Below are positions 8,026-29,740 of a stretch of DNA of 33,051 nt, piece by piece (position 1 is the stretch's first letter; every line of letters begins with the position of its first letter). Below the pieces are notes generated by a model that worked only from the letters and a program-made list of their open reading frames with translations, was not told the DNA's origin and did no database searches. The position numbers and the translations under genes were made by a program. Source of the DNA: Magnetococcales bacterium. GTDB taxonomy: Bacteria > Pseudomonadota > Magnetococcia > Magnetococcales > DC0425bin3. Location of the stretch: contig JADGBZ010000034.1 of assembly GCA_015231175.1 (NCBI GenBank), positions 1 through 33,051 on the forward strand. The letters are read 5' to 3'.

Positions 8026-10201
8026 GGGTTTCCCTCCAGGCAAACAGTCCTGCCGTCGGTTCCTCTTCGCAAACGGGTGCAGCGATGCCAGCAACAATCC
8101 GTTTAATGGCTTCCTGGCTATCCCCGAAACCATTCACTGTTTGGGCCAGGATCGCTAGCCTCTCCGGCGTCGTCAGGTTGGGATTCCATGTGTGCCGCAA
8201 CCGCCAGATGGCCATACGGGTAAGATGACCAAATACGATGCAACGGACATCCCCGGCGGATGGCTTCAGTCCCGCTTTGCGTAGCTGAATCAACTCCCTG
8301 ATCACAATGGGCAGAAGAACGTCAATCTCACCGAACAGGAGCGTTGCGTTGGTTTGGCCATTGGCCCGGCAAACAAACACCGTATCGACGATGGACGAGC
8401 CAGTTCCGTGGATGTGGATCGATCCCCCCATTTCAGCCGGACATGGCAGGGATGCGGTGCAGGTCAATCCAGCGTCCAGGATGGCAACCCCCACCGCGTG
8501 GTAGGCCTCGATCCGGTTGTGATGGTAAGTGAAGGCCAGAGGCGCACCAGGTTTCAACGCCTGTGCCATGCGCCGGTAAACTGCGGACAGCCCTTCGGTG
8601 AAATACTCAAACCCTCGTCCCTGGGAAACATTGCCGGTCAGTTCCTGCGGTGATAGCGCCGTCTTCTGGTCGAACCCCACACATCCGCTGTCGGCCAACT
8701 GCCGCAGCCAAGCATGGCAGAAATCCATCAGTTCCCCATACTGGACATTGCCGAAGTAAGGCGGATCGGTGAGTACTGCGTCCAGAGTGGCGGTGGGTAG
8801 CGTCATATCTGTCGAGGATGCACGGTGGAGTTCCACCCTGCGTGGGCGAGCACCGTTGTTGCGCTCGCCTATCCACTCTCCCTGGATCGGGATGGTGGTC
8901 TTGCGTCCGTTCCTGTGGTCCACCTCGAAGGGTGCGCTGCAATAACGTTTGGCCTTCAGGAATTTCTCCACGATGTTTGCCCACCCTCCTGAGCCCACGT
9001 TCACACCGTGGCCGTTGAGGGTGCCGAGCAGATTGGATTCGCACTGCACCAGACCCACCGGAAAACCGTGGACAGAGAAAATATCCAATGACTTTAATGC
9101 CATTGTGTCGTATCGGCACAACATGTTCTGGTAACGGAGCAGATCGGAGAGGTTGGTTGCCAGGGCGCGTCGTACCCGTTCGTCGGCGATTCCGGCAATG
9201 AGGCGGCAGCTCAGTTCCAAGCCCAGGAGTTGGCGCTCGTTGAACATGTCCCGATAGCGTCCGTACCCCCACCGGTGCAAGCGACCAGTTTCGTCTCCAG
9301 CGGGAATGATATCCTCGGGAACAAATCTGGGGGTTGTCTCCTGCCAACGGGATGTGGCCAGCTTGGCTTTCTCCAGATCCTTGGCGTCCGGCTTTTTGAA
9401 GAAACGTCCCCGGTGGCGTTCTTTTTGGTGGGGATTGTGGTATTCAATGGCGAAAAGCCGATGTCCGGGTGGTTCCGCTCCCGGTCTGGGGTAGCTGTTG
9501 GCATGACCGCAATGAGGGCAGGAACACTGACCGCGTTTGGCAGGCCCGACGTTGCGCAGTCCGCTTCCGCACCCACCGCATCTTCCGGGGTTTCGGAGGT
9601 CTACCACCTCGTTCAAGTCGCCGCAACCAGGGCAGACCAAAACATTGCGAGGGTGTCGCTTGTTCTCGGCCAGCAGGTAGCCGGGGAACAGGTCGAAGGT
9701 GCCGCCACACCGTTCGCAGTCAAGAACCTTGACCCAGAGGAAGTACTTCACGGGTACATCGCGCTCTCCGTACAAAGGACAGTCGGTGTTGTACAGTCCC
9801 CCAACCTCGCGTTCCAAATCGGCCATCAGACCATCGGCGGCAATTCGGTAAGCGGCAAGGTCGAGATGCTCAATCTCTTCCCGGACAATCCAAAAGGACA
9901 TGGGGTTGATGTCGCAACCGATCACGTCACAGCCGACGCGGTTGGCCTCGATCAATGGCGTACCGCCTCCCATGAAGGGGTCAGCTACGGTCTTTCCTGA
10001 AAAATCGTTGGCACGGAAGAACGTCTCTGCCAGAGGGCGATCCCCAAACTCTGCCAGCAACAACCCCCGGAATAGCGTGCCAGGACGGCGGGCAAACCAC
10101 TTATGCACGGCGATGATCGGTCGGTAGTTTTGCTGAATCTGCTTCTCTTTCAATGCCAGGGAAGCGATCAAGGAGATATCGAAGGTCGATTCGATGGTCA
10201 T
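8009..10201 (-). CDS. DUF1156-type DNA methyltransferase with zinc-finger insert
   Basis: The 730-residue protein begins with a DUF1156-like segment (IIAVHKWFARRPGTLFRGLL). This leads into the SAM-binding motif DPFMGGGTPLIEA (74-86) and then the catalytic motif TDPPYFGNVQYGE (478-490). The order FxGxG before DPPY and the DPPY type indicate N6-adenine or N4-cytosine methylation. Between the motifs lies an insert with four cysteine pairs (Cys162/165, 190/193, 208/211, 228/231), probably two zinc ribbons. The start is ATG 10201 with GGAG 12 nt upstream; an in-frame TTG at 10219 overlaps that site and is less likely. The gene overlaps the nuclease gene downstream. DUF1156 proteins also occur in multi-gene anti-phage systems with a helicase and a DUF499 ATPase, but neither is present here. 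Confidence 0.85.
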   Translation of the reverse strand: MTIESTFDISLIASLALKEKQIQQNYRPIIAVHKWFARRPGTLFRGLLLAEFGDRPLAETFFRANDFSGKTVADPFMGGGTPLIEANRVGCDVIGCDINPMSFWIVREEIEHLDLAAYRIAADGLMADLEREVGGLYNTDCPLYGERDVPVKYFLWVKVLDCERCGGTFDLFPGYLLAENKRHPRNVLVCPGCGDLNEVVDLRNPGRCGGCGSGLRNVGPAKRGQCSCPHCGHANSYPRPGAEPPGHRLFAIEYHNPHQKERHRGRFFKKPDAKDLEKAKLATSRWQETTPRFVPEDIIPAGDETGRLHRWGYGRYRDMFNERQLLGLELSCRLIAGIADERVRRALATNLSDLLRYQNMLCRYDTMALKSLDIFSVHGFPVGLVQCESNLLGTLNGHGVNVGSGGWANIVEKFLKAKRYCSAPFEVDHRNGRKTTIPIQGEWIGERNNGARPRRVELHRASSTDMTLPTATLDAVLTDPPYFGNVQYGELMDFCHAWLRQLADSGCVGFDQKTALSPQELTGNVSQGRGFEYFTEGLSAVYRRMAQALKPGAPLAFTYHHNRIEAYHAVGVAILDAGLTCTASLPCPAEMGGSIHIHGTGSSIVDTVFVCRANGQTNATLLFGEIDVLLPIVIRELIQLRKAGLKPSAGDVRCIVFGHLTRMAIWRLRHTWNPNLTTPERLAILAQTVNGFGDSQEAIKRIVAGIAAPVCEEEPTAGLFAWRETHAVPL

Positions 10202-10302
10202 TGAAAAGGGTGTCTCCAAGAGTTGATCTGGTCTTCCGAAGATGATCTCGGACCCAAGTTTACCTCCTTTTCCGTTTTCAAGCCAACCATCCTGCGCATC
10301 AA

Positions 10303-10397
10303 ACGGGTCAACAGGCTGTTGACCAGCGAGATTCCTTCGTTATTCGATAGTTAAGGCGGGTCAACAGCTACTGGACCCGCAGGGGGCGGGTCAACAG
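10303..10397. repeat. Three GGGTCAACAG repeats, two set in inverted repeats
   Basis: GGGTCAACAG occurs at 10305-10314, 10358-10367 and 10388-10397; the last two share the longer core GCGGGTCAACAG. The first is part of a near-perfect palindrome, GGTCAACAG-G-CTGTTGACC (10306-10324). The second is enclosed by GCGGGTC...GACCCGC. The cluster lies about 100-200 bp upstream of the methylase gene and could be a binding site for a regulator. That role is inference. Confidence 0.6.
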
Positions 10398-10523
10398 GTT
10401 TTGGAGAATACTGGCCGAGAGAGAAGAGACGGGCGGATTCCGACTCCGACGGGTCCGACACCGAACCAAGTTCCTTCTCGAACCACCCGTGCTAACCATT
10501 GGAAACATTGGGGTTTTTAAACG

Positions 10524-10840: not shown

Positions 10841-10986
10841 GGAGGGACTGACCGAAGGCCCCGAATTGGGGGGTGCGGAAGGCTACCCTCCCGCCCACCC
10901 TTTCTGAGAGCCGTGCCGAAATCTAGGATCCACCATCTGCATGGCTTTTGGCCATTTTTCAAAACGGCGCGAGGACAGTTTCAGCA

Positions 10987-12057
10987 ATGGCGAGTTCGTT
11001 CGTGTTCCTCCTGTGGACCATGATGGCCCACTTCTTCAGTCCCCGGCACAACGCCGAGATCCGGTTCCTCAAGGCCCAGATCCGCATCCTTCAGGCGCGG
11101 GTGACGACCAACCGGATCGCTCCGACGCCGGAGGAAAAATCAGAACTTCTCCGCATCGGTGCCGAATGCGACCACAATGTGGCCGACCTGATGGAGATCG
11201 TCAAGCCCGCCACCTACCGGCGTTGGGTCAGCCAGTCCACCAAGGATCAGCCCATCAAGCCGCTCGGACGCCCCCGGCCGACCCAGGAACTGCGGGACGC
11301 CGCCATACTCATGGCCAAGGAAAACATCCTCTGGGGCTACCGACGCATTGCCGGAGAACTCAAGAGGCTGGGGCGGTATGCCGGAGCCACCACGGTCAAG
11401 CGGATTTTTCGGGAAGCCAACATCCACCCAACCCCCGAGAAGGAGAAGAAGAAACCGCCCCTGCCTTGGCTGACTTTCCTCAAGGCCCACCTGGAATCCG
11501 TCGTGGCCTGCGATTTCTTTACCAAGGACGTCTTCACCCCCATGGGCAAGATGACGGCCTACGCCATGGTCTTCATCCACCTGGGCAGCAGGCGGGTCCA
11601 TTGCAGCGCGCCGACCTATTCCCCCGACAGCGCCTGGGTGACCCAGCAAGCCCGCAACGCCCTGATGTGGTGCGACGAGCAAGGCGTCAGGCCCCGATTT
11701 CTGATCCGCGACGCCGACACCAAATTCTCTGGCCCCTTCAACGAGGTCTGGAAATCAGAAGGGGGCCGGGTTATCCAGATTCCCAATGGGGCACCCCAAG
11801 CCAACGCATACTGCGAGTCCTTCATCGGCACCCTGAAGCGGGAGTGCCTGGATTTCTTCGTCTGCTTCAGCAATTCCCAGCTCGCCTACATTTTGAAGAC
11901 CTGGGTTCGTCATTATAACACCGAGCGACCGCATTCCGGCGAAGGGATCGGGAACAACGTCCTTTGTCCAGACTTCCGGCCCCATGTGTCCGGGCCAATC
12001 CGATGTTGAGAAGCACTTGGGGGGATCGTCCGATCCTACTACAGACAGGCGGCATAA
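10987..12057 (+). pseudogene. rve/DDE integrase-core transposase with a premature TGA near the C-terminus
   Basis: From ATG 10987 the frame gives 340 residues to TGA 12007-12009. An N-terminal helix-turn-helix (residues about 50-145, with WGYRRIAGELKRLG) precedes the rve catalytic core: Asp176 (VVACDFFTKD), Asp242/244 (LIRDADTKFSG) and Glu277 (AYCESFIGTLKRECLDFF). The end HYNTERPHSGEGIGN is typical of the family. Immediately after the TGA the same frame continues as EALGGIVRSYYRQAA to TAA 12055-12057. This is the terminal motif such transposases normally carry (usually ..RC-R-E-x-LGG..YYR.A). CGA to TGA at one codon would explain it. The catalytic core is complete, so activity may survive. 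I could not define inverted repeats or target duplications. Confidence 0.8.
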
Positions 12058-12243: not shown

Positions 12244-13407
12244 TTAGCATCCCTTATAGTGAAGCAATCGATCGATTGCTTCACTCAAAACATCTGGATC
12301 GCAAGCCACATTTATCCGGCCAAAGCCTTCCCACTCTGATCCGTATCCCGAACCATCGTCCAACGAAACTTTGGCTCGCCGCAAGGCATTGAAGCATGAT
12401 CGATATGGTGGGAAACCCAGTTCCCTCAAATTCACCCAAATAAAAGGTGTCGAACCAAAGCAATAAAAAGAGTCAGAACTTAATACATTTGCAAACCGTT
12501 TCTTCGCAACCAACATGTTCTCGCGAATAGCAACCCGAGCTTCTGCCAGCCAATCCAACCCACTTGTGAGACAGGCGGATGCAACACACTCAAATAAAGC
12601 AGTTGGAGGACAAACACGAGGATGCGAAAAATCGCGAAATATATCACCAGTCTTGTAATTCGAAAAAGCAAGCCAAGCACCACGTATAGAAGAAACTGCC
12701 CATGACTTAGTCACCGATTCTGCAAGAACTACATCATTAGAATTCTCAAAGATACTCTTCAAAAAATCCATCTCACTTAAGTCTAGAAGCGGTCTGTATA
12801 TACAATCAATAACAATTTTCATGCCCGCACGAGTTGCTAGACTAGCTAAATCAATAGCTTCTTGTTTGCTGAAAATTGATCCAGTGGGCACATGTGGAAA
12901 CGTCATCAGCACCGCTCCTTGCGTCCCATCGCACGCCGCTTCAACTGCATCAACATCAATTGACACACCATCGGCGGTACAGCACAAGTTAACAACTTCA
13001 GGCACTCCACCGCCAGAAACAATGGCGTTACACAGACCTGGGTATGCCGGACCAAGAACGATTATCTTTTTTTTGCTACGGTCAAGAAGTCGAACTATCT
13101 CGCTTATAGCAAATAGCAGCCCACCAACGAACTGCAGATTTGCTATATCAAAATTAATGCCTATTTCTTGGTATTGCTTCTGCAGAATCTCACGTAGTTT
13201 TGTCCTCTCATTGCCTGGAAAATATCCAAGATCGCTAGATCTGGCTTTCTGTGCAATTGCGTTTACAATGTGCTCCGAGACTCTGCAGTCAAATTCTGCA
13301 ACATCAAGGGGCAAAACGTCTTTCCCAAAACGCGACCATTTAAGACTACTTCGCTTTCGGCAATCAGTTTCCGATAGCCAGTTAAACTGTGAAGGTTTAG
13401 AAGGCAT
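12244..13407 (-). CDS. PLP-dependent aminotransferase / C-S lyase-like enzyme (fold type I, MalY/PatB-like)
   Basis: The 387-residue protein shows the class I/II aminotransferase layout. VLPLDVAEFDCRVSEHIVNAI resembles the MalY 'WVADMDF' opening. LGYFPGN comes next, then Asp201/Tyr204 in IVIDCIYRPL, and Lys234 in AESVTKSW, which should form the PLP Schiff base. Near the end, GFGRINVACDP supplies the substrate-carboxylate Arg. The usual NPxNPTG motif reads FPHVPTG, so Val replaces the Asn that contacts PLP O3'. This is unusual and may alter chemistry or abolish it. The start ATG 13407 overlaps the upstream gene's end by 11 nt; in-frame ATGs further upstream lie deep inside that gene. It is the last gene of the leftward AT-rich set. 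An aminotransferase or beta-lyase role is inference; the substrate is unknown. Confidence 0.75.
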   Translation of the reverse strand: MPSKPSQFNWLSETDCRKRSSLKWSRFGKDVLPLDVAEFDCRVSEHIVNAIAQKARSSDLGYFPGNERTKLREILQKQYQEIGINFDIANLQFVGGLLFAISEIVRLLDRSKKKIIVLGPAYPGLCNAIVSGGGVPEVVNLCCTADGVSIDVDAVEAACDGTQGAVLMTFPHVPTGSIFSKQEAIDLASLATRAGMKIVIDCIYRPLLDLSEMDFLKSIFENSNDVVLAESVTKSWAVSSIRGAWLAFSNYKTGDIFRDFSHPRVCPPTALFECVASACLTSGLDWLAEARVAIRENMLVAKKRFANVLSSDSFYCFGSTPFIWVNLRELGFPPYRSCFNALRRAKVSLDDGSGYGSEWEGFGRINVACDPDVLSEAIDRLLHYKGC

Positions 13408-14599
13408 TTGTCTGCAAGGGAAATACCCACTCCTCATTAATTTTTGGTACCTGTACATTACCAGCGACACGTTTAACTTGAAACAAAGCTTCAAACGAGA
13501 CCACATTTCTGGAAAAACCAGCAAATTTTCCTCTTACGGTACGGAAATTTTCAGCGGCTTGTGGAAGGTCACTAAATGCTAGTGCTGCTCCCAAGACACC
13601 AGAAGTGTGCAACCCATGCACCATAATCACCGAAGCACTTGGATCGAAGGGGTTCGGAAAGCGTGCAAAATATCCATAGTCGATTAATAACAATCCATCA
13701 TGATATTCAGGTCTAATAACTTGGATGGAATCACCACTTTCAAGATTCAACGATTCTCCATCTTCCGCATACTTGATCGCGCTCCTTATAGTTCGATTAA
13801 ATTCCCGACAAATTGGGTTTCCAGGTAAAACATCATCAATCCCAGGGCCACCAATTACAACAAGGTTATCCCTCAATAACTGTTTACCTGGAAACTCGTC
13901 TGAAGTGTATTTATGGACGCGAGAGCTATAGTTTCGCGATAGAAACACCATTAGCTCAAGAACAGTATCTTTATCGCTAAACTGCTCAAGATAAACATGA
14001 TTTCTGTGGTTTGGGTTTGATGAGTATAAATTATCTGTAGATTTCGATGCTACAATATGAATTGCGCCTGTCTCCTGAGGAAACCAAATTAGATTTCTAT
14101 CCATTGGGCTAATTCTCTGCCCTGCAAGGACTTCATGCACCTTTTCTACCAATCGATAAGGCAGCGTTACCGACAGATTAGCATCATCCTCATAATAGAG
14201 CGGATCATCATAAAAATCGGTGTTTCTTATGCTTTCCACTCTCTCTCTTCTTATCGTAATAATATGAGGTATTTTTGCGGCTTCACAATACCCTGCTTGG
14301 TACAGCTCAACAGCTGAGTCGCCAGCGCTAATATCTAAAATCAACAATGATGATGCATTCAATGCAGACACCACATTCCTGGCTGTAATTTTACTTTGTG
14401 AAGTTTGTTGTGCAACTAGCTCAACTTCTAAGTGTACGCCTTCTTCTGTAAGCATAGCTGATGCAGCCGCTGCCGCTTTAGTCACCGATGCACTAAAAAT
14501 CGATGCAGCTTCAGTGTTTCCACGGTAACAAGTGCCAATGGCAACTAACACTCTGACAGTTTTCTTGCCCGAAGCCTGTTTATTGGGTTTAGGTGACAT
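13397..14599 (-). CDS. Two-domain protein with an N-terminal nucleoside deoxyribosyltransferase/TIR-like domain
   Basis: Residues about 16-160 form an alternating alpha/beta domain opening RVLVAIGTCY. A core LLILDISAGDSAVELYQAGY (85-104) resembles the 'D-S-G-x-x-x-E-x-G-x-A' signature of nucleoside 2-deoxyribosyltransferases and related TIR-like nucleotide-processing folds; Glu98 would be the nucleophile. The C-terminal half (about 245-400) has NLVVIGGPG, then LIDYGYFARFPNPFDP, then VIMVHGLHTSGVLGAAL. It looks like a second folded sensor or ligand-binding domain that I cannot name. The start is uncertain: ATG 14599, or TTG 14611 overlapping the upstream stop. Either way the gene is translationally coupled upstream and overlaps the PLP enzyme downstream by 11 nt. 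Proteins with such domains are frequent in bacterial conflict systems, but a metabolic role is equally possible. Confidence 0.6.
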   Translation of the reverse strand: MSPKPNKQASGKKTVRVLVAIGTCYRGNTEAASIFSASVTKAAAAASAMLTEEGVHLEVELVAQQTSQSKITARNVVSALNASSLLILDISAGDSAVELYQAGYCEAAKIPHIITIRRERVESIRNTDFYDDPLYYEDDANLSVTLPYRLVEKVHEVLAGQRISPMDRNLIWFPQETGAIHIVASKSTDNLYSSNPNHRNHVYLEQFSDKDTVLELMVFLSRNYSSRVHKYTSDEFPGKQLLRDNLVVIGGPGIDDVLPGNPICREFNRTIRSAIKYAEDGESLNLESGDSIQVIRPEYHDGLLLIDYGYFARFPNPFDPSASVIMVHGLHTSGVLGAALAFSDLPQAAENFRTVRGKFAGFSRNVVSFEALFQVKRVAGNVQVPKINEEWVFPLQTNAF

Positions 14600-14607
14600 A
14601 TCAATAC

Positions 14608-15369
14608 TCAATTCTTATCAATCATTTTCATGCGACGAAGAAATAGTTTTTGAATGATTTCAGTTGGAGGTGAAACCGAAAACAAAACCGACCCTGCTCC
14701 AAGCGACAATCCTAAAGACGGATCCACAATTCCTGCAATCAATGACGCTGTTGACAGAGCAACCAAACTTACTCGCTCAGCAAGAGCAATGTTACCAATG
14801 GCACTTAGACACATTCCATAGGTTAGTAAATTTGCCCCGATATTAGATAATAACTCAGGCCGCATGAGCCACAAGTCCAACTCAACCGAACGGTTTATGA
14901 TAGGCAAGACCTTGATTGTAAGGTAGTCAGCTATTTCAAAGTAGATGGAAGCTTGTTCTTTGTCAGAGACCATCCTAGTTTCATTAATTATTACTTGAAC
15001 TGTCCTAATTATCCCCCTCACTTTGTCTTCAGATACTACGGATATACTGCGCTCACGGTCATCTGTAGATTCAATTTTCTTTAGTTCTGACAAAAAAGTG
15101 GAATCTTTGCTTGGTTTCGTAATTTCAGATGCCCAGAGATCTATGAAATCTATACCCAACTCAATTGTGGGTTTCTTTATCTCAGTACATAAATTCAGGA
15201 TAATATTTGCTGTGACAAGCTTATTGTCCAAGTTTGATCCTGCACTAGGCCCCCAAACGGTTTTAGACCAAAGCAAGAGGCCAAATTCGTCTGTTTGATG
15301 AGAACGATTTCGTGCTAGTCGCCCTAGAGTTGATATTACATGAAGCGGGTCAATTTGTATCTCGCTCAT
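14608..15369 (-). CDS. Unknown 253-residue protein with hydrophobic C-terminal region
   Basis: No family is recognised. The first 170 residues are mixed and charged. Residues about 178-232 are strongly hydrophobic and rich in Ala, Gly, Leu and Ser (LLTYGMCLSAIGNIALA, SLVALSTASLIAGIV, LGLSLGAGSVLFSV), compatible with two or three membrane segments. The basic tail FLRRMKM would lie on the cytoplasmic side. ATG 15369 has GGGA about 9 nt upstream. Its end touches the next gene (4-nt overlap if that gene uses TTG 14611), so the two are likely expressed together. Directly upstream lies an IS1182-family remnant, which separates this gene from the biosynthetic genes further right and may have cut an original operon. 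A membrane-anchored partner of the NDT-like protein is a plausible guess only. Confidence 0.5.
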   Translation of the reverse strand: MSEIQIDPLHVISTLGRLARNRSHQTDEFGLLLWSKTVWGPSAGSNLDNKLVTANIILNLCTEIKKPTIELGIDFIDLWASEITKPSKDSTFLSELKKIESTDDRERSISVVSEDKVRGIIRTVQVIINETRMVSDKEQASIYFEIADYLTIKVLPIINRSVELDLWLMRPELLSNIGANLLTYGMCLSAIGNIALAERVSLVALSTASLIAGIVDPSLGLSLGAGSVLFSVSPPTEIIQKLFLRRMKMIDKN

Positions 15370-15499
15370 ATCAATGTCCCATTTAGGAGTCTGTCTCCAA
15401 ATAGTCTGGCTAGTTGGTTACAGTGGTCAGTTGACCGAAAGTAGGCCCTGCCAGTCCGGTTTCTTACTGACGAAAAGGCGGGAATTCCACCCTCAATGG

Positions 15500-15860
15500 A
15501 GCTATTTGGCCCCTTTCTCCCCTCTGCGGACGTACTCCACCTGCATTTTCTTGAGATTGTGCTCCACGGCGTGCAGTTCCACTCCCCATCGCAAAACTTG
15601 ATCCCGCGCATCCGGAACTCGTCCGTACCCTGGGTTTCCTTCATCTGCCCGAACACTGGCTCATCTTCCGTCATCCATTCTCGATTTTATAGCATCTTTC
15701 CGCACTTGGTCAACAGCTTCCGCTCCATCCGTTCCCGATTCGTCAGATCCTGCGGAATCCTCCATCCGCCCCCGTGGTGCCACCTGTTCTTACATCGCTC
15801 GTCGATGTTTCCAATCCTTCCGGGTGGCGATCAACAGTTCACAGTCGTCTGTCCCCGCCC
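15500..15860 (-). pseudogene. IS1182-family transposase, C-terminal remnant
   Basis: The leftward frames carry the C-terminal signature of IS1182-type transposases in broken form. LLIATRKDWKHRRAM comes first, then RIPQDLTNRERMERKL with a stop codon soon after, then EPVFGQMKETQGTDEFRMRG. After a one-base frame change comes LHAVEHNLKKMQVEYVRRGE. At least one stop and one frameshift are needed to join them, and the N-terminal three quarters of the gene are absent. It is dead. It sits between the glycosyltransferase gene and the hydrophobic-protein gene, in sequence more GC-rich than its neighbours. Confidence 0.75.
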
Positions 15861-16110
15861 CGTTGTTCTCATCCGACTGAGGTGGACGGACCCCAAAGCA
15901 AGGACAGAAATCGGATCGGAATAAGCTACACCCTACCCATGGTAGAAGGCCGTTCCGGACCACCCTTTCGCGTGTCAAATTTTAAAAATGGTTTTCCCAA
16001 GACTCCATGCTCAGATGAGGAGAAGGGGGCATGGTTGCGGGAAACGGTCGTATCGTTTTGTTGGTCTCGAATCCGGGGTCCATTTTACTGCTCTTCTATC
16101 CAAACATGAT
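15861..16110. other. Scar sequence between the IS1182 remnant and the glycosyltransferase gene
   Basis: No gene is recognisable in these 250 bp or in 15370-15499 on the other side of the remnant. The composition is intermediate and probably represents decayed insertion-sequence ends. Intact inverted repeats or a target duplication were not found by eye. Confidence 0.45.
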
Positions 16111-17343
16111 TTATCGTGCTAACCTCATAGAACTATTTGCAGCAGATATTATTTTATTCAAGATATTCTGGCTGCAGATCTTATTAGCAACACAGGCTTT
16201 CACCCTATTGATCTCTTCCAGTGATGCCTCGTACAATACAGCTTGCTGGAAGTCTTCGTGTGTTCGTCGATAGGTCCAATTATCAGGGATAAGGTTGGCG
16301 GCTCCTACATATCCGTTTTTTGGTACAACAATCTTAGCTCCCGCTATTATTGCCTCAAGCATAGTATAAGGAACCAAATCATACCTTGATGTGCAGGCCA
16401 CAACCCCACAACTCGCAATCCAAGGAAATACAGATTGAATCAATACATTGTGTGGAAGTCGAGGAAGACGAGTTATATGCTGCCTAAATCCACAATCAAG
16501 CTTGCTATCAATTTCGCGAAACACAGGATCTTCAATCTCACCACCTATCAAGACAACCCCGCTAATCATGCCTGATGCAATGATACCATGAACACCCTCC
16601 AAAAAGAAATCAACATCTTTAAAGTAGTCAAACCTTGAAACAGCAAAGAGTACATATCTTTCGCCATTATTTGTAGCTAATTGTTTCAGTTCATCCGGAA
16701 GTAAATCGTGTTTTATGAATGATTCATTGTTTACCACGGGCGGAAGATTAAAGATGCGCGATCTATTAATCCCAAGGAGATTTAGATGGTCAATTTGTAT
16801 TTTACTTATCTCTGCGAACACTACATTACAACGGTTTGTAAGTTTTTCGAGTGCGCCACTCTGACGACACAAAAGGAAATCTGCTTTTGGGTGATCCCAA
16901 TCAAATGCCATCCGTCCATTTTCTTCACCAAGAAACGCAAAAACTGAGCTGACAAAAGGCGAATGATTGGTAATTACTATAGGTATGCTTGGTTCGAAGT
17001 AATCAGCAACTGCTAAACTCTGGCAATATAAAATAGCCCTGCAATCGTTACTCGATAAAAGCCTAAATTCGCCTGAAAAAAATTTAATCAAATCATCACG
17101 TCGCATGTCAAAATTAAAAGAAACGATGGAAGCATCATAATCCATAATGCGGCACCGCTTGCATTTCGGCTGCAGTAATGTTTGATCGCGATTGTACAAT
17201 AAAAAACTAACTTCAATTCCTGCCCCAGAAAGAATTTCTGAAATATGCAGAACGTGTTGGACCACTCCATAGATGAACGCAGAATTCCGTTCTATAGGAA
17301 CAAACTTATTGTTGAAAACGATAACCATCCTTTTTAAAGACAC
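16111..17343 (-). CDS. GT4-family glycosyltransferase
   Basis: The 410-residue protein has the two Rossmann-like halves of GT-B enzymes. The nucleotide-sugar half contains RYVLFAVSRFDYFKDVDFFL, the usual 'hGRhxxxKG' strand. It then has ACTSRYDLVPYTMLEAIIAGAKIVVP, which is the EX7E motif with Asp in place of the first Glu. The N-terminal half carries the acceptor-side helices (GVVQHVLHISEILSGAG) expected for lipid- or glycan-linked acceptors. The GTG start at 17343 is preferred because GGGGGA lies 8 nt before it; the first ATG (17328) lacks spacing. It follows the beta-helix acyltransferase gene by 32 bp and is probably co-transcribed. It should add a hexose-type sugar to a glycan, lipid or small-molecule acceptor; the exact substrate is unknown. 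Confidence 0.82.
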   Translation of the reverse strand: MSLKRMVIVFNNKFVPIERNSAFIYGVVQHVLHISEILSGAGIEVSFLLYNRDQTLLQPKCKRCRIMDYDASIVSFNFDMRRDDLIKFFSGEFRLLSSNDCRAILYCQSLAVADYFEPSIPIVITNHSPFVSSVFAFLGEENGRMAFDWDHPKADFLLCRQSGALEKLTNRCNVVFAEISKIQIDHLNLLGINRSRIFNLPPVVNNESFIKHDLLPDELKQLATNNGERYVLFAVSRFDYFKDVDFFLEGVHGIIASGMISGVVLIGGEIEDPVFREIDSKLDCGFRQHITRLPRLPHNVLIQSVFPWIASCGVVACTSRYDLVPYTMLEAIIAGAKIVVPKNGYVGAANLIPDNWTYRRTHEDFQQAVLYEASLEEINRVKACVANKICSQNILNKIISAANSSMRLAR

Positions 17344-17375
17344 CTCTTCATTCCCCCTGTCTCTCCAATCATGGT

Positions 17376-17951
17376 CTACGACCTTGCCCTAACAAGTCCA
17401 CGCATTGATTTAAGTGGCCTCCACTTCCCGCTCCCAATAAATGTTTTTGCTGGAACATCACTTCGAACAATTTCTCCAGCAGCAATATAAGAGCCTTTTC
17501 CGATTACTATTCCTCCAACAATTTCCGCACCTTGCGCAATAACCACTCCTTCTCTGATAATTGGAGAAACTTCGTCGACCTCTCCCCACTTCAAGGTCGC
17601 GTCTTGATACTGATGAGACATTTCACCCATCATGGTCACCTTCGGTCCAATAACTGTGCGGTCAGGAATATTTCCTCCTATGATGCAGTCCGGTCCGATA
17701 AGCGCATGTCTAGCTACTCTAACGGCATCGACAAGTTGAGATCTTTGCCCAATCCTTGAACCTCTTCCAACTACAGAATGGTGTGCGAGGATCACGTCTG
17801 CTTCGAGATATGCACCTGCCTCGATGACGCAAAATGCCCCTATTATTACACCCGCTTCAATTATTGTTGACTCCTCTACTTCACCTGGAAGTGAGTAGCC
17901 AATCACTGCTGTTGGGTGAACAATTGCGCTTTCATGAATTTTAACGGACAT
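17376..17951 (-). CDS. Left-handed beta-helix (hexapeptide-repeat) acyltransferase
   Basis: The 191-residue protein is built almost entirely of hexapeptide repeats ([LIV]-G-x4): AVIGYS, GVIIGAFCVIEAGAYLEADV, VVGRGSRIG, IIGGNI, VIGPKV, then GVVIAQGAEIVGGIVIGKGS. Catalytic His candidates are His53/His54 in ILAHHSVVG and the later His of MSHQYQD. Members transfer acetyl or longer acyl groups from CoA or a carrier protein to sugar hydroxyl or amino groups. The neighbouring adenylation enzyme and carrier protein make an acyl-carrier donor plausible, and the adjacent glycosyltransferase makes a sugar acceptor plausible. Six bases separate it from the hydrolase gene upstream. The start at ATG 17951 has no strong Shine-Dalgarno, as expected for coupled translation. 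Confidence 0.82.
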   Translation of the reverse strand: MSVKIHESAIVHPTAVIGYSLPGEVEESTIIEAGVIIGAFCVIEAGAYLEADVILAHHSVVGRGSRIGQRSQLVDAVRVARHALIGPDCIIGGNIPDRTVIGPKVTMMGEMSHQYQDATLKWGEVDEVSPIIREGVVIAQGAEIVGGIVIGKGSYIAAGEIVRSDVPAKTFIGSGKWRPLKSMRGLVRARS

Positions 17952-17957
17952 TTTTGC

Positions 17958-18824
17958 CTAGCCTATCACTGGAAATTTTCCACTAAGGGAACCATGGTTT
18001 AACAACCCAATAAGCTCCTCGAACACTGATGCCTGAAAGAACTTTGTCTTTTCTTCTTTGAAATTTGCATCACCAGGTTGAGCAAAACCATGATCTGCTC
18101 CTGGGATTTCTATGAGTTTTGCTTCATTATGGTCTCCCTTAACGCGGTTTCTCGAAATTGTAATGTCTACCCCTGCATCTTTATCACCATGAAATATCCA
18201 GATATTTTTAGTCGGCAGCAAAGTTTCAAAAGCTTTGAATTCGTTAATTATCGGTCTCCCGAATGGCTTTCCCCATGAAACAAGTGTATTCTTCTGCGTT
18301 AATTCGACTATCGCGTTATCAGATAGACCGTCATAGTTCCCCTTGCTCTCTCCAGCTCTACCGCCTTCGTCCGAACCCTTAATGTACTCATGAATGTAGT
18401 CAAGGATTGGGGCAAAAAGAACACACTTATCTATCATACTCTCGTTTCTGGAACACCAAGTTGAAGCTACACCTCCGGAGAATGATTGAGCAAGAACTGA
18501 AATTTTAGATATTTTATTGATCGACTCGCTAGCTATTCTTACTGCGGCATCAATATCGTTGTACAATCCCGCCAACGTTAATTCGGATAGTGGGCGACTT
18601 GAGTCAAAACCATGACAACGCCAGTCGAAACGAAATGACGCTATTGAATTCTCACGTAGTTGACTTGCAAGCCTAGTATAAAATCCTAAGTATTCGTCCC
18701 TGGTAACGTTAATGCCTGGCACCATAACAAGCAATTGATCAAATACTCCCCCCTGTGGAATTTCGAGCGTTCCCTCAAGCTCAACACCATCAAAACTGGT
18801 AAATCGTAAATCTCTAACGGTCAT
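17958..18824 (-). CDS. Alpha/beta hydrolase (esterase or editing thioesterase type)
   Basis: The roughly 288-residue protein has an alpha/beta-hydrolase layout. An oxyanion-hole strand LLVMVPGINVTRDEYLG comes first, then FRFDWRCHGFDSS. The nucleophile elbow is SVLAQSFSGGVAS (Ser in AQSFSG). The acid Asp is in WIFHGDKDAGVD and the His in PGADHGFAQPGD, so the triad is complete. It may release or edit carrier-bound intermediates (type II thioesterase role) or hydrolyse an ester in the final product. This is inferred from its place between the carrier-protein and acyltransferase genes. The start is set at ATG 18824 with AGGGGG 6 nt upstream; ATG 18827 and TTG 18842 are alternatives. The last of these would overlap the carrier-protein gene. 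Confidence 0.8.
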   Translation of the reverse strand: MTVRDLRFTSFDGVELEGTLEIPQGGVFDQLLVMVPGINVTRDEYLGFYTRLASQLRENSIASFRFDWRCHGFDSSRPLSELTLAGLYNDIDAAVRIASESINKISKISVLAQSFSGGVASTWCSRNESMIDKCVLFAPILDYIHEYIKGSDEGGRAGESKGNYDGLSDNAIVELTQKNTLVSWGKPFGRPIINEFKAFETLLPTKNIWIFHGDKDAGVDITISRNRVKGDHNEAKLIEIPGADHGFAQPGDANFKEEKTKFFQASVFEELIGLLNHGSLSGKFPVIG

Positions 18825-18838
18825 CATAGTCCCCCTGT

Positions 18839-19099
18839 TCAATTACGAATGTTTCTTTTGTCAGACATTTTTTCTAGCAGCAACCCGTGGAGGGCCTCTA
18901 GAGAATCACACCTTACCATTTCTAAGTCGGATATTTCGACGGAAAACACTTCTTCAATCTTCTCAACTATTTCAATCGTTGCCAAACTGTCCCAGCCTGG
19001 AGTACGGTAGACTGCAATCTGGATATCATTTTCACAATTTTGTTTTATTCCGAGCACGTCTAGTATAATTATCCTTATTTTGCTTTTCATGTTAATCAT
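18839..19099 (-). CDS. Acyl/peptidyl carrier protein
   Basis: At 86 residues it is the right size for a free-standing carrier protein. The phosphopantetheine attachment motif is clear: GWDSLATIEIVEKIEEVF, where Ser of DSL would take the 4'-phosphopantetheine arm. Helix 3 follows with VEISDLEMVRCDSLEALHGL. The protein is acidic overall. It overlaps the end of the adenylation gene by 8 nt, implying a one-to-one partnership: the adenylating enzyme should load its acid onto this protein as a thioester. It needs a phosphopantetheinyl transferase encoded elsewhere. ATG 19099 is used; ATG 19090 is a close alternative. Confidence 0.9.
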   Translation of the reverse strand: MINMKSKIRIIILDVLGIKQNCENDIQIAVYRTPGWDSLATIEIVEKIEEVFSVEISDLEMVRCDSLEALHGLLLEKMSDKRNIRN

Positions 19100-20558
19100 T
19101 TTCCAAGCTTGAGCTGTCGTGGATAAGTTTCTCGCAAGCTGCGTAGTTGATTTTACCTCTTAAATTTCTAGGCAATACTTTAGCGGTCATGATGTTTGTT
19201 GGGCATACAAAACTAGGGACTTCTTCTGCCACGATTAGGTTAATTTGATCTACAGAAACAGCTGGAGATGCCTCTACCAACAGCGTTAAATCATCACCAG
19301 ACTTTAAGACCACACAAGTAGCACCTAATCTCTTTATAAGTAATTCTTCCATGGTTTCTAGTTGTACCCTATTGCCATTTCGAACTATCTCTCGTCCTAA
19401 CCGGCCTTGATACACAAGCCCATCCCCAGAATCATCTACAATATCGCTGGTGTTGTAAATTCCTACCTCTCCAGGAGCCTTCAATTGGTAAAAATTGCTT
19501 GAACCATTTTTTGTGTCTAACCACTCAATGCAAACCTGTTTACTGCTAATTTGAAGCTCACCAGAGCTACTTCCATTTCGTGGTAATATTTTAATACTTG
19601 TATTAACAGTTGGACTACCCAAATCAGGAATTGCTCGATCATTTTGCAGAGACAGTTTTTCCCGGTTGATATGCTTTATCATAGAGAAGCCTGCAACTTC
19701 AGCGCATCCATATGTTGTATATAATTTAGTTTTTCTGGGTAGCCAAGCATTCATTTCCACGAGCGTTGAATGATGGACGATATCACCTCCCAAACCAACA
19801 AATTCCAGACTGAGTTCGCGCTGCAAACTGCGCCTTCGGCCAGCGGAGATCAGCTTGGATATTTGAGGGACACTTCGGAAATGAGTAGCTTGAGATTTTG
19901 CAAGTTGTGCATAAGCACTTAGTGGGTTCTTTTGGGGATCGTAGTATATGCTGGAGCCTGACGTTAGAGCCATCAATGCATTGTTCATCCACATATCGGA
20001 TGTATAGTCACCACATTCTATCCAAATATGTTCAGGTCTCAGAGCAAGATTATAGCGGGCCCATTTCAGAAACTCCGCTAGCCCTAACGAGTCAACTCCT
20101 ATTATTTTGGGGGCCCCCAATGAACCAGAAGTCAAGGTCATATGGCTTACAGCAGAATGAAACGCACTTGGCTCTTTCTGGATCGGGATGACTTGATCGA
20201 CTGAACTAGTTTCTATTTTAAATTTAATATTAGCGGTAGAAATGACAAGCTTTGCGTCTAAAGTATTAATATGCCGTTTGACTGCTTCAATAGAGGTCTG
20301 CTCACCCAAAACCATCATTCGAAAATTACCCAGGCAGCTAGCAAGTAGTGTCGCGTACATTACACTGCTGTCAGCTCCAAAGTAGATTACATAGTCATTC
20401 CTGCTAACTTTATTATGCGTAGCAAGACTGATGACACCTGAAACCAAGTGTGACAGATCTGTGTAAGTTATTTTACCCCAAGATCCTGCTAAAGCGATCA
20501 AGTTATCGTGTCTCTCAAACGAACTTAAGATCAGGCTTCTCATGTTTACAGTGTCCAA
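19092..20558 (-). CDS. Stand-alone adenylation enzyme (AMP-binding superfamily)
   Basis: The 488-residue protein shows the ANL-superfamily core motifs. The P-loop-like MTLTSGSLGAPK is A3. YTTYGCAEVAGF is A5. IYNTSDIVDDSGDGLVYQGR is A7, and GREIVRNGNRVQLETMEELL is A8. The C-terminal Lys in LPRNLRGKINY is A10. All catalytic positions are kept, so it should activate a carboxylic or amino acid as the acyl-adenylate and load the carrier protein encoded next. The substrate pocket (IWIECGDYTSDMWMNNALMAL) is not one I can decode. Start: TTG 20558 has GGGAG 9 nt upstream and is preferred over ATG 20543, which lacks a site. It is the first gene of the leftward operon; a MITE-like element sits 34 bp upstream and could affect its promoter. 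Confidence 0.86.
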   Translation of the reverse strand: MDTVNMRSLILSSFERHDNLIALAGSWGKITYTDLSHLVSGVISLATHNKVSRNDYVIYFGADSSVMYATLLASCLGNFRMMVLGEQTSIEAVKRHINTLDAKLVISTANIKFKIETSSVDQVIPIQKEPSAFHSAVSHMTLTSGSLGAPKIIGVDSLGLAEFLKWARYNLALRPEHIWIECGDYTSDMWMNNALMALTSGSSIYYDPQKNPLSAYAQLAKSQATHFRSVPQISKLISAGRRRSLQRELSLEFVGLGGDIVHHSTLVEMNAWLPRKTKLYTTYGCAEVAGFSMIKHINREKLSLQNDRAIPDLGSPTVNTSIKILPRNGSSSGELQISSKQVCIEWLDTKNGSSNFYQLKAPGEVGIYNTSDIVDDSGDGLVYQGRLGREIVRNGNRVQLETMEELLIKRLGATCVVLKSGDDLTLLVEASPAVSVDQINLIVAEEVPSFVCPTNIMTAKVLPRNLRGKINYAACEKLIHDSSSLEND

Positions 20559-20592
20559 AGTACATTACTCCCGAGCCAGTTTCCGAATCTAG

Positions 20593-20874
20593 GTCGTGTT
20601 GACATTCAAAACCGCGCAACCTCTTGCAGAGATTCACCCTGTCTGTCATTCCCGCGCAGAGCCTGCCCTCGAATGCTTAAATCGGGGGCGGGAATCCAGG
20701 AAAAGTTGCCAACGGATGCGATCCTCCAAGGAGACAAAGGGCCTTTATTCTCTCGCAGCGAAGTCTGTTTCCCGCTCCCCCATCATGAAAGTCCGCCTGG
20801 ATTCCCGCCTGCGCGGGAATGACGGAGGATACTTTCGGGAAATTTGCTGTTTTTCCGCCGAATGTCAACACGCC
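20593..20874. mobile_element. MITE-like element with 15-bp terminal inverted repeats and CTAG flanks
   Basis: The left end starts GTCGTGTTGACATTC. The reverse complement of the right end is GGCGTGTTGACATTC, so 14 of 15 bases match. CTAG flanks both sides (20589-20592 and 20875-20878), consistent with a 4-bp target duplication or a preferred palindromic target. The 282-bp interior has no coding frame but does hold REP-like palindromes. It is probably a non-autonomous element mobilised by a transposase encoded elsewhere; the IS5-like remnant nearby is a candidate relative only. Confidence 0.6.
20646..20823. repeat. REP-like inverted repeats inside the MITE
   Basis: GTCATTCCCGCGCAG near 20646 is the reverse complement of CTGCGCGGGAATGAC ending at 20823. 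GGCGGGAATCCAGG (about 20688-20701) pairs with CTGGATTCCCGCC (about 20798-20810). This 'CATTCCCGCG...GCGGGAATCCAG' vocabulary is common in dispersed proteobacterial repeats. The nested symmetry would fold into a long branched hairpin. Confidence 0.55.
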
Positions 20875-20919
20875 CTAGCAATGACACGCAGTGCATTGAG
20901 TTGAGTTCCGAAAAAATTT

Positions 20920-21401: not shown

Positions 21402-21423
21402 CTGATCCCTCATGGGGGATCAG
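21402..21423. repeat. 8-bp perfect hairpin at the vsr stop codon
   Basis: CTGATCCC (21402-21409) and GGGATCAG (21416-21423) are perfect complements around a 6-nt loop that contains the vsr remnant's TGA. There is no T-run on either side, so a terminator role is uncertain. It might also be part of an insertion-sequence end. Confidence 0.4.
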
Positions 21424-21737
21424 GATTTAACATAACCACGCGAATGGGAACAGGCCCTAACTCCCTCATCAAATTTTTGGGAATGTCGTGATCTTCTTTA
21501 ACCTCATGCTCCCAAACCCGAACAACCCTCCACCCCATCTTCGCCAGTTCCTCATCCACCCGTCGATCCCGCTCCAGGTTGCAGGCCAGCTTCTTCTGCC
21601 AGAACTCGGCATTCCGCACGGGCGCTGTATAGTGGATCGGACACCCGTGCCAAAAACACCCATCCACAAAGACGACCACCTTACCCTTTATAAAAGCAAA
21701 ATCCGGCGTCCCTGGCAAGTCCGGTCGTACACGGTAG
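21410..21737 (-). pseudogene. vsr: Very short patch repair endonuclease, 5' end removed
   Basis: About 109 residues of Vsr remain: YRVRPDLPGTPDFAFIKGKV, then VVFVDGCFWHGCPIHYTAPV, then EFWQKKLACNLERDRRVDEELA, and finally WRVVRVWEHEVKED. The catalytic Asp (GTPDF) and His residues (FWHGCPIH) are present. The N-terminal helix and its conserved residues are gone. The frame enters from the ISAs1-like element at 21738, whose terminal repeat directly abuts the YRV codons. Vsr nicks at T:G mismatches produced by deamination of 5-methylcytosine and usually accompanies a cytosine-5 methylase; no such gene is in this window. A read-through fusion starting inside the IS is possible but would probably not be active. 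Confidence 0.85.
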
Positions 21738-22957
21738 CAGGGCAATCGCATTTCAAAATTGAGCGAGGAGGGTTGCGAGAAAGTCATTGCTCCAACCAGC
21801 ACGTTTGAATTTGACGCGCATGGATCCCTTTGATCCATCTTTTCGGACGATGTTTGTGGCCATATGGCGAAGAACGGCCAAGTTTTCCGGACCGTTGTCC
21901 TTGCGTGAGCGGTTTTGGTCCTCGTTGAGGACAACATCAAGTACCCAGTGCAGGCTATTCTCAATGCCCCAATGCGAGCGAACGACTTGTCCAAAACGTT
22001 CGGCAGATAATGGTGTACTCAGAAGATAATAAGCTGTTTCTGTGGTTTTTTTTATGGATGTCTCGCGAATTCTGTCCACCTTGCCAATCGCTGCCAAACC
22101 TGGCCAGGAATGAAATTTTTGAAGCCAATCAATGTCAGTCGAAACCACTGCGGTCCGGATTTCGATACGCCCGTGGTCACCATCGGTTGTGGTATGCGGA
22201 ACACATTTAACTTCCGGGTCATTGAAGAATAGGCTGACATCAGTATGCAAGGTGCCCTGGTTTCCTTTGAGAGCAAACGCATAATCTCCGCCCTGATCAA
22301 CGATCTGTTGAGCGATGCTGCGTTGGCAATTGAGAGCATCAACGGTGACAATATTGCCTTTAAGTGAGAGCATTTTCAATAAGTTGGGAACTGCGGTAAT
22401 TTCATTGGACTTGGTGTCGGTGGCTACCTGGGCCAGTACCATTCTTTGTTCACAACCCCAGGCACTGACCATATGCAGAGCGGATTGTCCGCTTGCTGTG
22501 TCGAAAGAGTGGCGAAGTGCCTTGCCATCAATGGCGATAACGCCTCGGCAGATTTCTGAAAAATGGGCCATGAATTTTATAAAACAGGCTTGGAACTGCT
22601 TTGGGTCAATCAGTCTGAACACCCGACTGAATGTGTCATGGCTCGGAATGCCGTACTCCAATTTCAGGAATTGGCGGAGAAACTCTTCTTTTGCCTGACC
22701 GAATATCTGCATATCCACTGCGGTTTGTCCTCCACATAGAACCGTGCAAAGTGCAATCACTAAAATTTCCAATAAGTTATGCCGTTCAGCATGGCCTGTT
22801 CTGGGATCCTCTAACGAGTCAAAACACGCAGCGAAATCCTCCATGACTTTTCCTCCACAGTTCGTTTGTCACGCAACTGTGAAAGGATTGGTCGATTTTT
22901 GTAACCAGCACAAGCCTGCTCGTTGGTGTCAACAGATTTTGAAATGCGATTGCCCTG
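21738..22957 (-). mobile_element. ISAs1-family insertion sequence, intact
   Basis: The 1,220-bp element is bounded by perfect 22-bp inverted repeats beginning CAGGGCAATCGCATTTC (21738-21759 and 22936-22957). It contains one uninterrupted transposase gene whose stop codon lies inside the left repeat. The bases outside the two ends (ACACGGTAG and GCCCCTGCC) do not match, so no target duplication remains. The left end cuts the vsr gene. The right end abuts a 51-bp direct repeat. Confidence 0.92.
21753..22844 (-). CDS. ISAs1-family transposase
   Basis: The 363-residue protein is full length. The family opening FDSLEDPRTGHAERHNLLEI is followed by SHDTFSRVFRLIDP. The first catalytic Asp lies in GVIAIDGKALRHSFD, and later conserved segments are VDALNCQRSIAQQIV, GGDYAFALKGNQG and SHWGIENSLHWVLDVVLNED. 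No frame damage is seen. ATG 22844 opens the family N-terminus (MEDFAACF). It is the sole gene of its element and should be active. Confidence 0.95.
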   Translation of the reverse strand: MEDFAACFDSLEDPRTGHAERHNLLEILVIALCTVLCGGQTAVDMQIFGQAKEEFLRQFLKLEYGIPSHDTFSRVFRLIDPKQFQACFIKFMAHFSEICRGVIAIDGKALRHSFDTASGQSALHMVSAWGCEQRMVLAQVATDTKSNEITAVPNLLKMLSLKGNIVTVDALNCQRSIAQQIVDQGGDYAFALKGNQGTLHTDVSLFFNDPEVKCVPHTTTDGDHGRIEIRTAVVSTDIDWLQKFHSWPGLAAIGKVDRIRETSIKKTTETAYYLLSTPLSAERFGQVVRSHWGIENSLHWVLDVVLNEDQNRSRKDNGPENLAVLRHMATNIVRKDGSKGSMRVKFKRAGWSNDFLATLLAQF

Positions 22958-23522: not shown

Positions 23523-23588
23523 TCACCGGAGTTCACCCAGCCTCCGAGTTTTTGGGTGACTTTGCATCGGGCCAGGAATGAGCGTGAT

Positions 23589-23639
23589 GGCCTCTGCCGC
23601 ATACCACCTTTGCCTCAGGGCAGGATGGGTTTAGGATGG
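23589..23639. repeat. 51-bp direct repeat, right copy
   Basis: This is the partner of 22957-23007 (44 of 51 identical), in the spacer between the RelE-like toxin and the first hybrid kinase. It ends 48 bp before the kinase start. Confidence 0.8.
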
Positions 23640-23687
23640 GCGCCGCATCCGTTTGCCGTTCAACATGGGGCAACCCCGCCGAGCGCC

Positions 23688-26600: not shown

Positions 26601-27119
26601 CACCTCCTGGAACAAATCACCACCGCCCTGAATCTGCATGATCAGGAGGCTGCGGCCCATTTGACGCACACCATCAAGGGAGTGGCCGGCAATATCGGCG
26701 CCAAACCCCTCCAGCAGGCGGCCCTGGATCTGGAGTTGACCATCAAAAACGACCAGGATACACAGGCTGCCCTGGCCGTTTTTGCCACACGCCTGACCGC
26801 GTTGCTTGCCGTTCTGCGGCAGGTCACGGAGAGCGCCAGCGATCACGAGGTGATCCGGAACATGGACGATGTGCCACCCGAGGTCCGTGACCGCCTCGCA
26901 CCTCTCATGCAACAGTTGGCGCGGCAACTTGCCGATTACAATTTTGAGGCCCATGATCTGCTGGATACCATGCGCCAGGAGTTCTCCGCCACCTCCCTGG
27001 GGGTGAGCCTGGAAAAGGCGGCGGCGCAGCTTGAACGATACGAATTTGAAAATGTCCTGAAAATATTGGCGAGGGTCGCCGCAGAACTCGATATTCCTCT
27101 GGGGGAAGAGGACGCATGA
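23688..27119 (+). CDS. Hybrid histidine kinase with four receiver domains, PAS and HPt
   Basis: The 1,143-residue cytoplasmic protein has, in order: receiver 1 ([13 protein letters not shown], phospho-Asp55, Lys in YFIKDN); receiver 2 ([12 protein letters not shown], Asp175); PAS (about 265-385, [20 protein letters not shown]); HisKA with His411 in [16 protein letters not shown]; HATPase_c with its N, G1 and G2 boxes ([28 protein letters not shown]); receiver 3 ([12 protein letters not shown], Asp702); receiver 4 ([14 protein letters not shown], Asp851); and HPt with His994 in [13 protein letters not shown]. No membrane segment is seen. ATG 23688 is chosen because it opens the receiver fold; the frame extends to 23556 through repeat-like sequence. 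It overlaps the second kinase by 4 nt. Sensor input probably comes through PAS or partner proteins; the output is unknown. Confidence 0.92.
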
Positions 27120-29518: not shown

Positions 29519-29524
29519 CGATTC

Positions 29525-29701: not shown

Positions 29702-29740
29702 GATGCGTTGCCGGGTGGTGAAAAATGACTGCCATTCTTT

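Follow-up and report, generated by a model that had tools for sequence, protein, structure and literature searches.

In lincosamide biosynthesis, LmbC and the carrier protein LmbN-CP activate an amino acid that is later amide-linked to an amino sugar (PMC4351081). In the assembly of the Flavobacterium psychrophilum O-polysaccharide, an ACP of its own is predicted to supply the acyl group to a PglD-like acyltransferase (PMC6519341), and in Vibrio cholerae O1 a dedicated acid pathway acylates the amino groups of perosamine (PMC3441752). We analyzed a 33,051-nucleotide stretch of DNA from a Magnetococcales bacterium (the window), in which positions 12244 to 20558 are predicted to encode a stand-alone adenylation enzyme (AMP), a carrier protein (ACP), an alpha/beta hydrolase (HYD), a left-handed beta-helix acyltransferase (LbH), a family 4-type glycosyltransferase (GT4), a PatB/MalY-like enzyme (PLP) and a 404-aa protein (P404). 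The same seven genes stand together in G441, a genome from another class of the same phylum. We propose, with confidence evenly balanced for and against, that these positions carry a mobile biosynthetic cassette of seven genes, gained by horizontal transfer, which makes an aminoacyl-sugar by the mechanism set out below and is interrupted here by an insertion sequence (IS) scar and one extra gene.

Results

The cassette genes in the window have a GC content of 37.9 to 46.4% and a GC3 of 0.33 to 0.41, compared with 56.6 to 61% and 0.65 to 0.79 in the flanking host-type genes, which bears out the sharp difference in composition reported by the sequence-only reading. Every gene of the island lies on the minus strand, and AMP, ACP, HYD, LbH and GT4 are indeed packed leftward as that reading had described, with overlaps of 8 nt (AMP/ACP) and 4 nt (ACP/HYD) and gaps of 6 nt (HYD-LbH) and 32 nt (LbH-GT4); Pfam and NCBIfam domains agree with its assignments, the GT4 match falling just short of the curated cut-off. 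The island also contains the PLP enzyme, P404, a 253-aa protein (P253) and a 0.7-kb transposase scar (DDE_Tnp_1_6 in Pfam; 15366 to 16110), which splits the cassette, has a GC content of about 0.49, above that of the cassette genes, and has no second copy in the same genome. The conserved set is broken up in the window by the IS scar and the nonconserved P253.

Both edges of the island consist of mobile-element sequence. On the left is an integrase-core (IS3/IS481-type) transposase on the plus strand (10948 to 12009), partial copies of which, 87 to 89% identical, occur elsewhere in the genome. The right boundary region holds a MITE-like element with 19-bp inverted ends (20589 to 20878) and an ISAs1-type insertion sequence with perfect 22-bp inverted ends on the minus strand (21738 to 22957), whose transposase has a GC content between the cassette and host-type values. 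The MITE-like element lies 31 bp upstream of the AMP start and has probably replaced the native DNA upstream of the cassette; because that DNA is cut so close to the start, expression of the window cassette is uncertain. A mis-binned contig was considered and is unlikely, since related copies of the flank transposon sequence are found on the genome's other contigs. We note that the window flank also encodes a DUF1156/Hma-like DNA methylase and a truncated Vsr-like nuclease.

In G441, the order is AMP-ACP-HYD-LbH-P404-PLP-GT4, with all genes on the same strand and none more than 15 nt from the next, and the seven genes are 27 to 53% identical in amino acid sequence to those of the window (AMP, 27%; HYD, 42%; LbH, 53%; GT4, 30%; P404, 45%; PLP, 34%). 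Both copies retain the ACP serine, the HYD serine and histidine, the PLP lysine and arginine, and the D-x7-E motif of GT4. The G441 cassette has about 44% GC in a host of 65 to 70% GC; taken over both copies, the genes have about 40 to 46% GC (50% for LbH of G441) and a GC3 of 0.33 to 0.47, compared with 0.65 to 0.87 in flanking host genes. This second copy adjoins an ISL3 transposase, and both lie within a conjugative-type element that carries a phage-type integrase, ParB, a TraG-type coupling protein and a TrbB-type ATPase, and the element has relatives among conjugative plasmids. Because G441 holds all seven genes, packed and beside mobile-element genes, we conclude that the cassette genes travel together, and the transfer that had been read from composition is now seen as a compositional contrast in a mobile-element context in two hosts. 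The recurrence of the same seven genes in compact form with nothing extra also argues that the set is self-sufficient. Among the genomes sampled, G441 held the only complete cassette besides that of the window; on this sample the expectation that the genes keep company survived, and the idea of a cooperating gene set gained the synteny of G441, with the correction that the unit comprises seven genes rather than five, PLP and P404 having been missed.

AMP (19092 to 20558; 488 aa; Pfam AMP-binding, E = 3.9e-19) starts at a TTG codon preceded by GGGAG and resembles an aminoacyl-carrier ligase; it matched the AA-adenyl-dom model at 2.4e-27 in an NCBIfam scan, and its closest solved structure is the L-prolyl-carrier ligase 7thn. 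The alignments showed that D188, corresponding to the alpha-amino-binding Asp of A-domains (D235 in GrsA), and the catalytic K469 (K517) are invariant. Because this A-domain Asp is conserved, the activated acid is more likely to be an alpha-amino acid than another acid. Seven of the 10 pocket positions are identical between the window and G441, despite 26 to 28% identity over the protein, and an Arg in the pocket, R228, is present in both; the amino acid possibly has an acidic side chain. ACP (18839 to 19099; 86 aa) is an acyl/peptidyl carrier protein by its PP-binding match (1.1e-5; Pfam score of 26, cut-off of 20.8) and carries the GWDSL serine in both copies. HYD (17958 to 18842; 294 aa; Hydrolase_4, 4.9e-12) shares S120, D220 or D222, and H251 with its G441 counterpart and may be either an editing thioesterase or an aminoacyl shuttle. 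Its homologues on actinobacterial plasmids (30 to 36% identity) are stand-alone genes adjoining XRE regulators.

LbH (17376 to 17951; 191 aa; Hexapep, 2.5e-16) matched, weakly, the solved chains of QdtC and other sugar N-acyltransferases as its nearest relatives. Enzymes of the LbH type also use acyl-CoA, and certain LbH folds are carbonic anhydrases. GT4 (16111 to 17343; 410 aa; Pfam, 1e-5) scored 26.2 bits in the window against a curated cut-off of 27, whereas its G441 ortholog scored 28.6, above the cut-off; D322-x7-E330 is conserved in both. PLP (12244 to 13407; Aminotran_1_2, 4.5e-24), a fold-type I enzyme with a likely ATG start at 13407, retains the catalytic K234 and R364 in the two copies. 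Its match to the PatB model TIGR04350 (6e-42; 143.9 bits) falls below the cut-off of 340, and the protein is likely a C-S lyase or aminotransferase of the same fold family as PatB.

P404 (13397 to 14611; BLASTP ortholog in G441) is 22% identical between the copies in its N-terminal half and 56.5% in its C-terminal half. Profile matches of the G441 protein to Nuc_deoxyrib_tr (0.0072) and to a PADLOC TIR effector model (5e-4) were below cut-off. In the N-x-x-x-E-L-G motif, the predicted catalytic Glu is a Glu in G441 (NVMYELGY) and a Gln in the window (LYQAGY). These features suggest a new family with an N-terminal TIR/nucleoside-deoxyribosyltransferase-like domain and a strongly conserved C-terminal domain of unassigned fold; structure prediction from the single sequence (mean pLDDT, 31.7) gave no usable model. 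P253 (14608 to 15369), an orphan that overlaps the P404 start by 4 nt, matched no family in Pfam, NCBIfam or PADLOC and nothing on plasmids, and is absent from the G441 cassette. None of the window's cassette proteins matched the PADLOC anti-phage models.

A query of the genome collection with AMP returned no relatives. In sampled genomes, its relatives were generic ligases, mostly of 22 to 27% identity, and the neighborhoods of six of them contained no other recognizable cassette gene. Two plasmid ligases were rejected as counterparts: that of Klebsiella sits in a Dlt-like operon, and that of Agrobacterium vitis belongs to an acyl-CoA dehydrogenase/P450 cluster. Searching the collection with an LbH alignment yielded generic LpxA-type or distant matches only; this alignment was padded by two invented rows and carries no evidential weight. 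Viral contigs scanned with P404, LbH, HYD and AMP gave no matches. The set had not been recognized as a described cluster in the sequence-only reading, and our literature search, whose coverage mostly excluded subscription journals, likewise found no match to the seven genes.

Discussion

In the mechanism that we propose, AMP would adenylate an alpha-amino acid, possibly one with an acidic side chain, and load it on holo-ACP, and HYD would edit the thioester or shuttle the aminoacyl group. PLP would make or remodel the amino acid, or cleave the C-S bond of an intermediate. LbH would move the amino acid from the carrier onto the amine of an amino sugar, presumably drawn from the host, and GT4 would attach the acylated sugar to an acceptor or build it there. 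The cassette has no nucleotide-sugar genes that would tell which amino sugar this is. P404 would be a conserved partner whose activity lies outside the model. The earlier scheme of activation, loading and transfer to a sugar fits the enzyme families and their conserved catalytic residues and was incomplete in leaving out PLP and P404. Its label of a glycan-modifying module goes further than the gene content warrants: flippase, polymerase, nucleotide-sugar enzyme and transporter are all missing from the cassette, whose product is no less likely to be a small soluble conjugate.

GT4 and LbH are typical of polysaccharide loci, which are commonly low in GC and mobile, and the cassette could instead N-acylate an amino sugar in the O-antigen or exopolysaccharide of its host, altering phage or immune recognition. 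ACP-borne acyl transfer is predicted for the F. psychrophilum O-polysaccharide (PMC6519341), perosamine is N-acylated by tetronate in V. cholerae O1 (PMC3441752), and some weak matches to LbH lie in haloarchaeal sugar loci. However, sugar-nucleotide, flippase, polymerase and ligase genes are absent from both copies, neither is surrounded by a recognizable polysaccharide locus, and such a role offers no evident use for P404 or the PLP enzyme, so that we consider this role possible but unlikely. An origin as the remnant of a larger antibiotic- or siderophore-like cluster, the rest of which has been lost, would account for the lincosamide-type trio of stand-alone A-domain, carrier and PLP enzyme, but is improbable given that G441 has the identical seven genes, compact and complete with nothing extra, and that export or resistance genes are absent.

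The lack of a transporter and the mobile, IS-flanked setting would also suit a conflict system, anti-phage or otherwise, that makes a small molecule inside the cell for the TIR/deoxyribosyltransferase-like P404 to sense or consume. The weak matches of the G441 P404 and the methylase and truncated nuclease in the window flank point the same way. Against this, the predicted catalytic Glu is replaced by Gln in the window, in a half of the protein that is 22% conserved, PADLOC matches none of the window's cassette proteins, and we know of no defense system with this enzyme set; we regard the idea as rather doubtful. Equally doubtful is its fuller form, in which a self-sufficient mobile cassette makes an intracellular aminoacyl-sugar that P404 senses, modifies or consumes in a conflict or signaling system; if true, this would be a new class pairing carrier-protein biosynthesis with a TIR-like protein. 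We give almost no credence to the idea that the genes are a variant form of the ligase/ACP/hydrolase trio associated with exosortase A: AMP and HYD match TIGR03098 and TIGR03100, but at 42.2 and 23.3 bits against cut-offs of 592 and 168, no exosortase gene was recognized nearby, and the genome has no TIGR03098 match above cut-off.

Taking the aminoacyl-sugar cassette as the preferred reading, the block appears to be a mobile biosynthetic pathway not described before, because it entered two unrelated bacteria as a unit and includes an unmatched protein family. It is a compact unit that moves as a block between bacteria of different classes, and since all seven have stayed side by side under selection despite divergence to 27 to 53% identity, it offers a strong starting point for finding a new metabolite. 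The P404 family brings a deeply conserved domain of unassigned fold, and the cluster can be searched for by its seven-gene signature and tested in a laboratory host.

The tetronate module of V. cholerae O1 comprises a ligase, an ACP and a beta-helix transferase and sits within a full O-antigen cluster; to our knowledge, it has neither P404 nor a PatB-like enzyme. D-Alanylation by DltA and DltC likewise uses a stand-alone aminoacyl ligase and a carrier, and AMP weakly matches DltA models, but its score with TIGR01734 is 66.8 bits against a cut-off of 560, and the cassette has no DltB (MBOAT) or DltD neighbors. A further related system is the wfpC-G module of F. psychrophilum, for which the authors predicted ACP-dependent N-acylation of Qui2NAc4N by a dedicated ACP and a beta-helix sugar N-acyltransferase (PMC6519341); there, ketoacyl synthases build the acyl chain, whereas here an A-domain ligase would supply what is probably an amino acid, outside any polysaccharide locus. 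The lincosamide synthetase (LmbC, LmbN-CP and LmbD, with the PLP enzyme LmbF) shares the stand-alone A-domain, carrier and PLP enzyme in its pathway (PMC4351081, PMC5518657). Pfam and NCBIfam scans of the cassette recognized no LmbD, LmbE or LmbV family member and no sugar genes. Unlike the lincosamide system, the cassette has GT4, HYD and P404, and its likely transferase is the beta-helix acyltransferase. By analogy, the best reading is that an amino acid is joined to an amino sugar, much as happens in lincosamides or in the N-acylation of O-antigens, though by other enzymes, possibly adding a route from amino acids to sugars that combines an A-domain, a carrier and a beta-helix transferase.

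Gene order and composition of the cassette

The window is the entire contig G000:C34 of a 3.8-Mb genome, and between ~12.2 and 20.6 kb its GC content falls to 40-46%. The genes of this island, all of which read leftward (minus strand), have a GC3 of 0.33-0.41; in flanking genes of host type it is 0.65-0.79. Profile searches identified an AMP-binding ligase (AMP; 19092-20558), a carrier protein (ACP; 18839-19099), an alpha/beta hydrolase (HYD; 17958-18842), a left-handed beta-helix acyltransferase (LbH; 17376-17951) and a GT4-type glycosyltransferase (GT4; 16111-17343), the five functions that a sequence-only reading had named. Successive genes from AMP to GT4 overlap by 8 and 4 nt and are then separated by gaps of 6 and 32 nt. 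Beyond GT4 lie a transposase scar (15366-16110), an orphan 253-aa gene (P253; 14608-15369), a 404-aa gene (P404; 13397-14611) and a gene for a PatB/MalY-like PLP enzyme (PLP; 12244-13407), near whose 3′ end we noted a loop-less, perfect 28-bp palindrome (12258-12285).

A seven-gene set recurs in a second genome

We searched other genomes for the cassette proteins. AMP had distant generic relatives at best among 100 near relatives, 398 genomes of the phylum and 48 of the class; HYD had no relatives at E ≤ 1e-12 among 398 genomes, and P404 had none among 200. With LbH, a search of 357 genomes from another class of the same phylum returned a single strong match (53% identity, E = 6e-62), in the genome G441. 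There, AMP-ACP-HYD-LbH-P404-PLP-GT4 lie contiguously on a single strand with gaps of ≤15 nt, which supports the view that the genes travel together. Identities to the window proteins are 27% for AMP, 39% for ACP, 42% for HYD, 53% for LbH, 45% for P404, 34% for PLP and 30% for GT4. Of the eight intact genes of the window, all but P253 are present in this set, so the true unit is seven genes; the unit of five proposed earlier was present but had omitted PLP and P404. The window GT4 is relocated, from the operon end to beside the transposase scar. The G441 cassette is the only complete second copy known; both full-collection genome scans were insensitive, the second being run with a query alignment padded with invented probe rows.

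Mobility and flanking DNA

The G441 cassette is likewise AT-rich (41-48% GC within a 60-72% GC region; GC3 0.35-0.47) and is flanked by an ISL3 transposase. The enclosing element encodes a phage-type integrase, ParB, parts of a Strawberry-notch-type helicase, a TraG-type coupling protein and a TrbB-type ATPase, and its backbone is similar to Paracoccus plasmids and many conjugative plasmids. In this region (L103 and L105; G441:C1:1809001-1849000) the cassette is cargo of an element of conjugative type, and the host is GC-rich. Low mutual identity and a common AT-rich composition suggest that the two copies may have been acquired independently from a diverse AT-rich pool.

In the window, an integrase-core transposase marks the left cassette boundary, and a MITE-like element and an ISAs1 element mark the right. 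The MITE-like element (20589-20878; 19-bp inverted ends, inner CATTCCCGCG/CGCGGGAATG-type repeats) lies directly upstream of the cassette and interrupts native upstream DNA 31 bp ahead of the AMP start, leaving it uncertain whether this genome expresses the cassette. The ISAs1 element (21738-22957) has perfect 22-bp inverted ends and apparently truncates a Vsr-like nuclease gene (21410-21994). Other contigs of the same genome hold related copies of the flank transposon sequence, so contamination is an unlikely source of the window contig. Further left are a DNA methylase that resembles defence methylases of the HmaB/DUF1156/PglX type and is possibly rearranged (8009-10219 and 6991-8133), and three related 24-nt CGGGTCAACAG repeats (10304-10410); to the right (23556-31675), two very large hybrid histidine kinases precede a NIT-domain chemoreceptor encoded on the other strand.

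Conserved residues and a proposed pathway

AMP aligns with a stand-alone L-prolyl-carrier ligase and other A-domains, and its alpha-amino-binding Asp (D188) and catalytic Lys (K469) are invariant in the alignment. The mapped pocket reads D-[ML]-[NT]-R-G-G-T-G-[FI]-K, to our knowledge matching no standard signature. As 7 of the 10 pocket positions are identical between the copies despite 26-28% identity over the rest of the protein, both enzymes probably use the same substrate. Where GrsA has residue 278, both copies carry a conserved Arg in the pocket, perhaps a weak sign of an acidic side chain.

Other catalytic features are also retained: the GWDSL serine of ACP, the Ser and His of HYD, the Lys and carboxylate-binding Arg of PLP, and the D-x7-E pair of GT4. 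LbH is distant kin of QdtC and other sugar N-acyltransferases. Stand-alone HYD homologues (30-36%) occur beside XRE regulators on Kitasatospora/Streptomyces linear plasmids (L085, L087 and L088, around 9001-9819).

The window P404 had no matches in Pfam, NCBIfam or PDB, and a structure predicted from the one sequence was not usable. The N-terminal part of the G441 copy weakly matched Nuc_deoxyrib_tr (0.0072) and a TIR effector model (5e-4). This part is only 22% identical between the copies, and the Glu predicted to be catalytic is replaced by Gln in the window copy. The C-terminal 239 residues, at 56.5% identity, are among the cassette's most conserved stretches, so it is probably this conserved domain that does the work.

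In the simplest pathway predicted from these assignments, an amino acid would be loaded as aminoacyl-ACP and passed on to form an aminoacyl-amide of an amino sugar, which GT4 would add or use. HYD could serve as an editing thioesterase or shuttle, and PLP might provide or remodel the amino acid, or break a C-S bond.

Comparison with known systems

Cassette proteins scored below curated cut-offs for exosortase-A-associated families, as did AMP for the DltA family and PLP for the PatB family, and no cassette protein of the window matched a PADLOC model of a known defence system. In working mode, and with no claim of membership, we liken the cassette to two systems: the carrier-fed sugar N-acylation predicted for the F. 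psychrophilum O-polysaccharide (PMC6519341), and lincosamide synthetase. In the latter, the A-domain LmbC loads the carrier LmbN-CP and the amino acid is joined to an amino sugar through an amide bond (PMC4351081); a PLP enzyme takes part at a later stage (PMC5518657).
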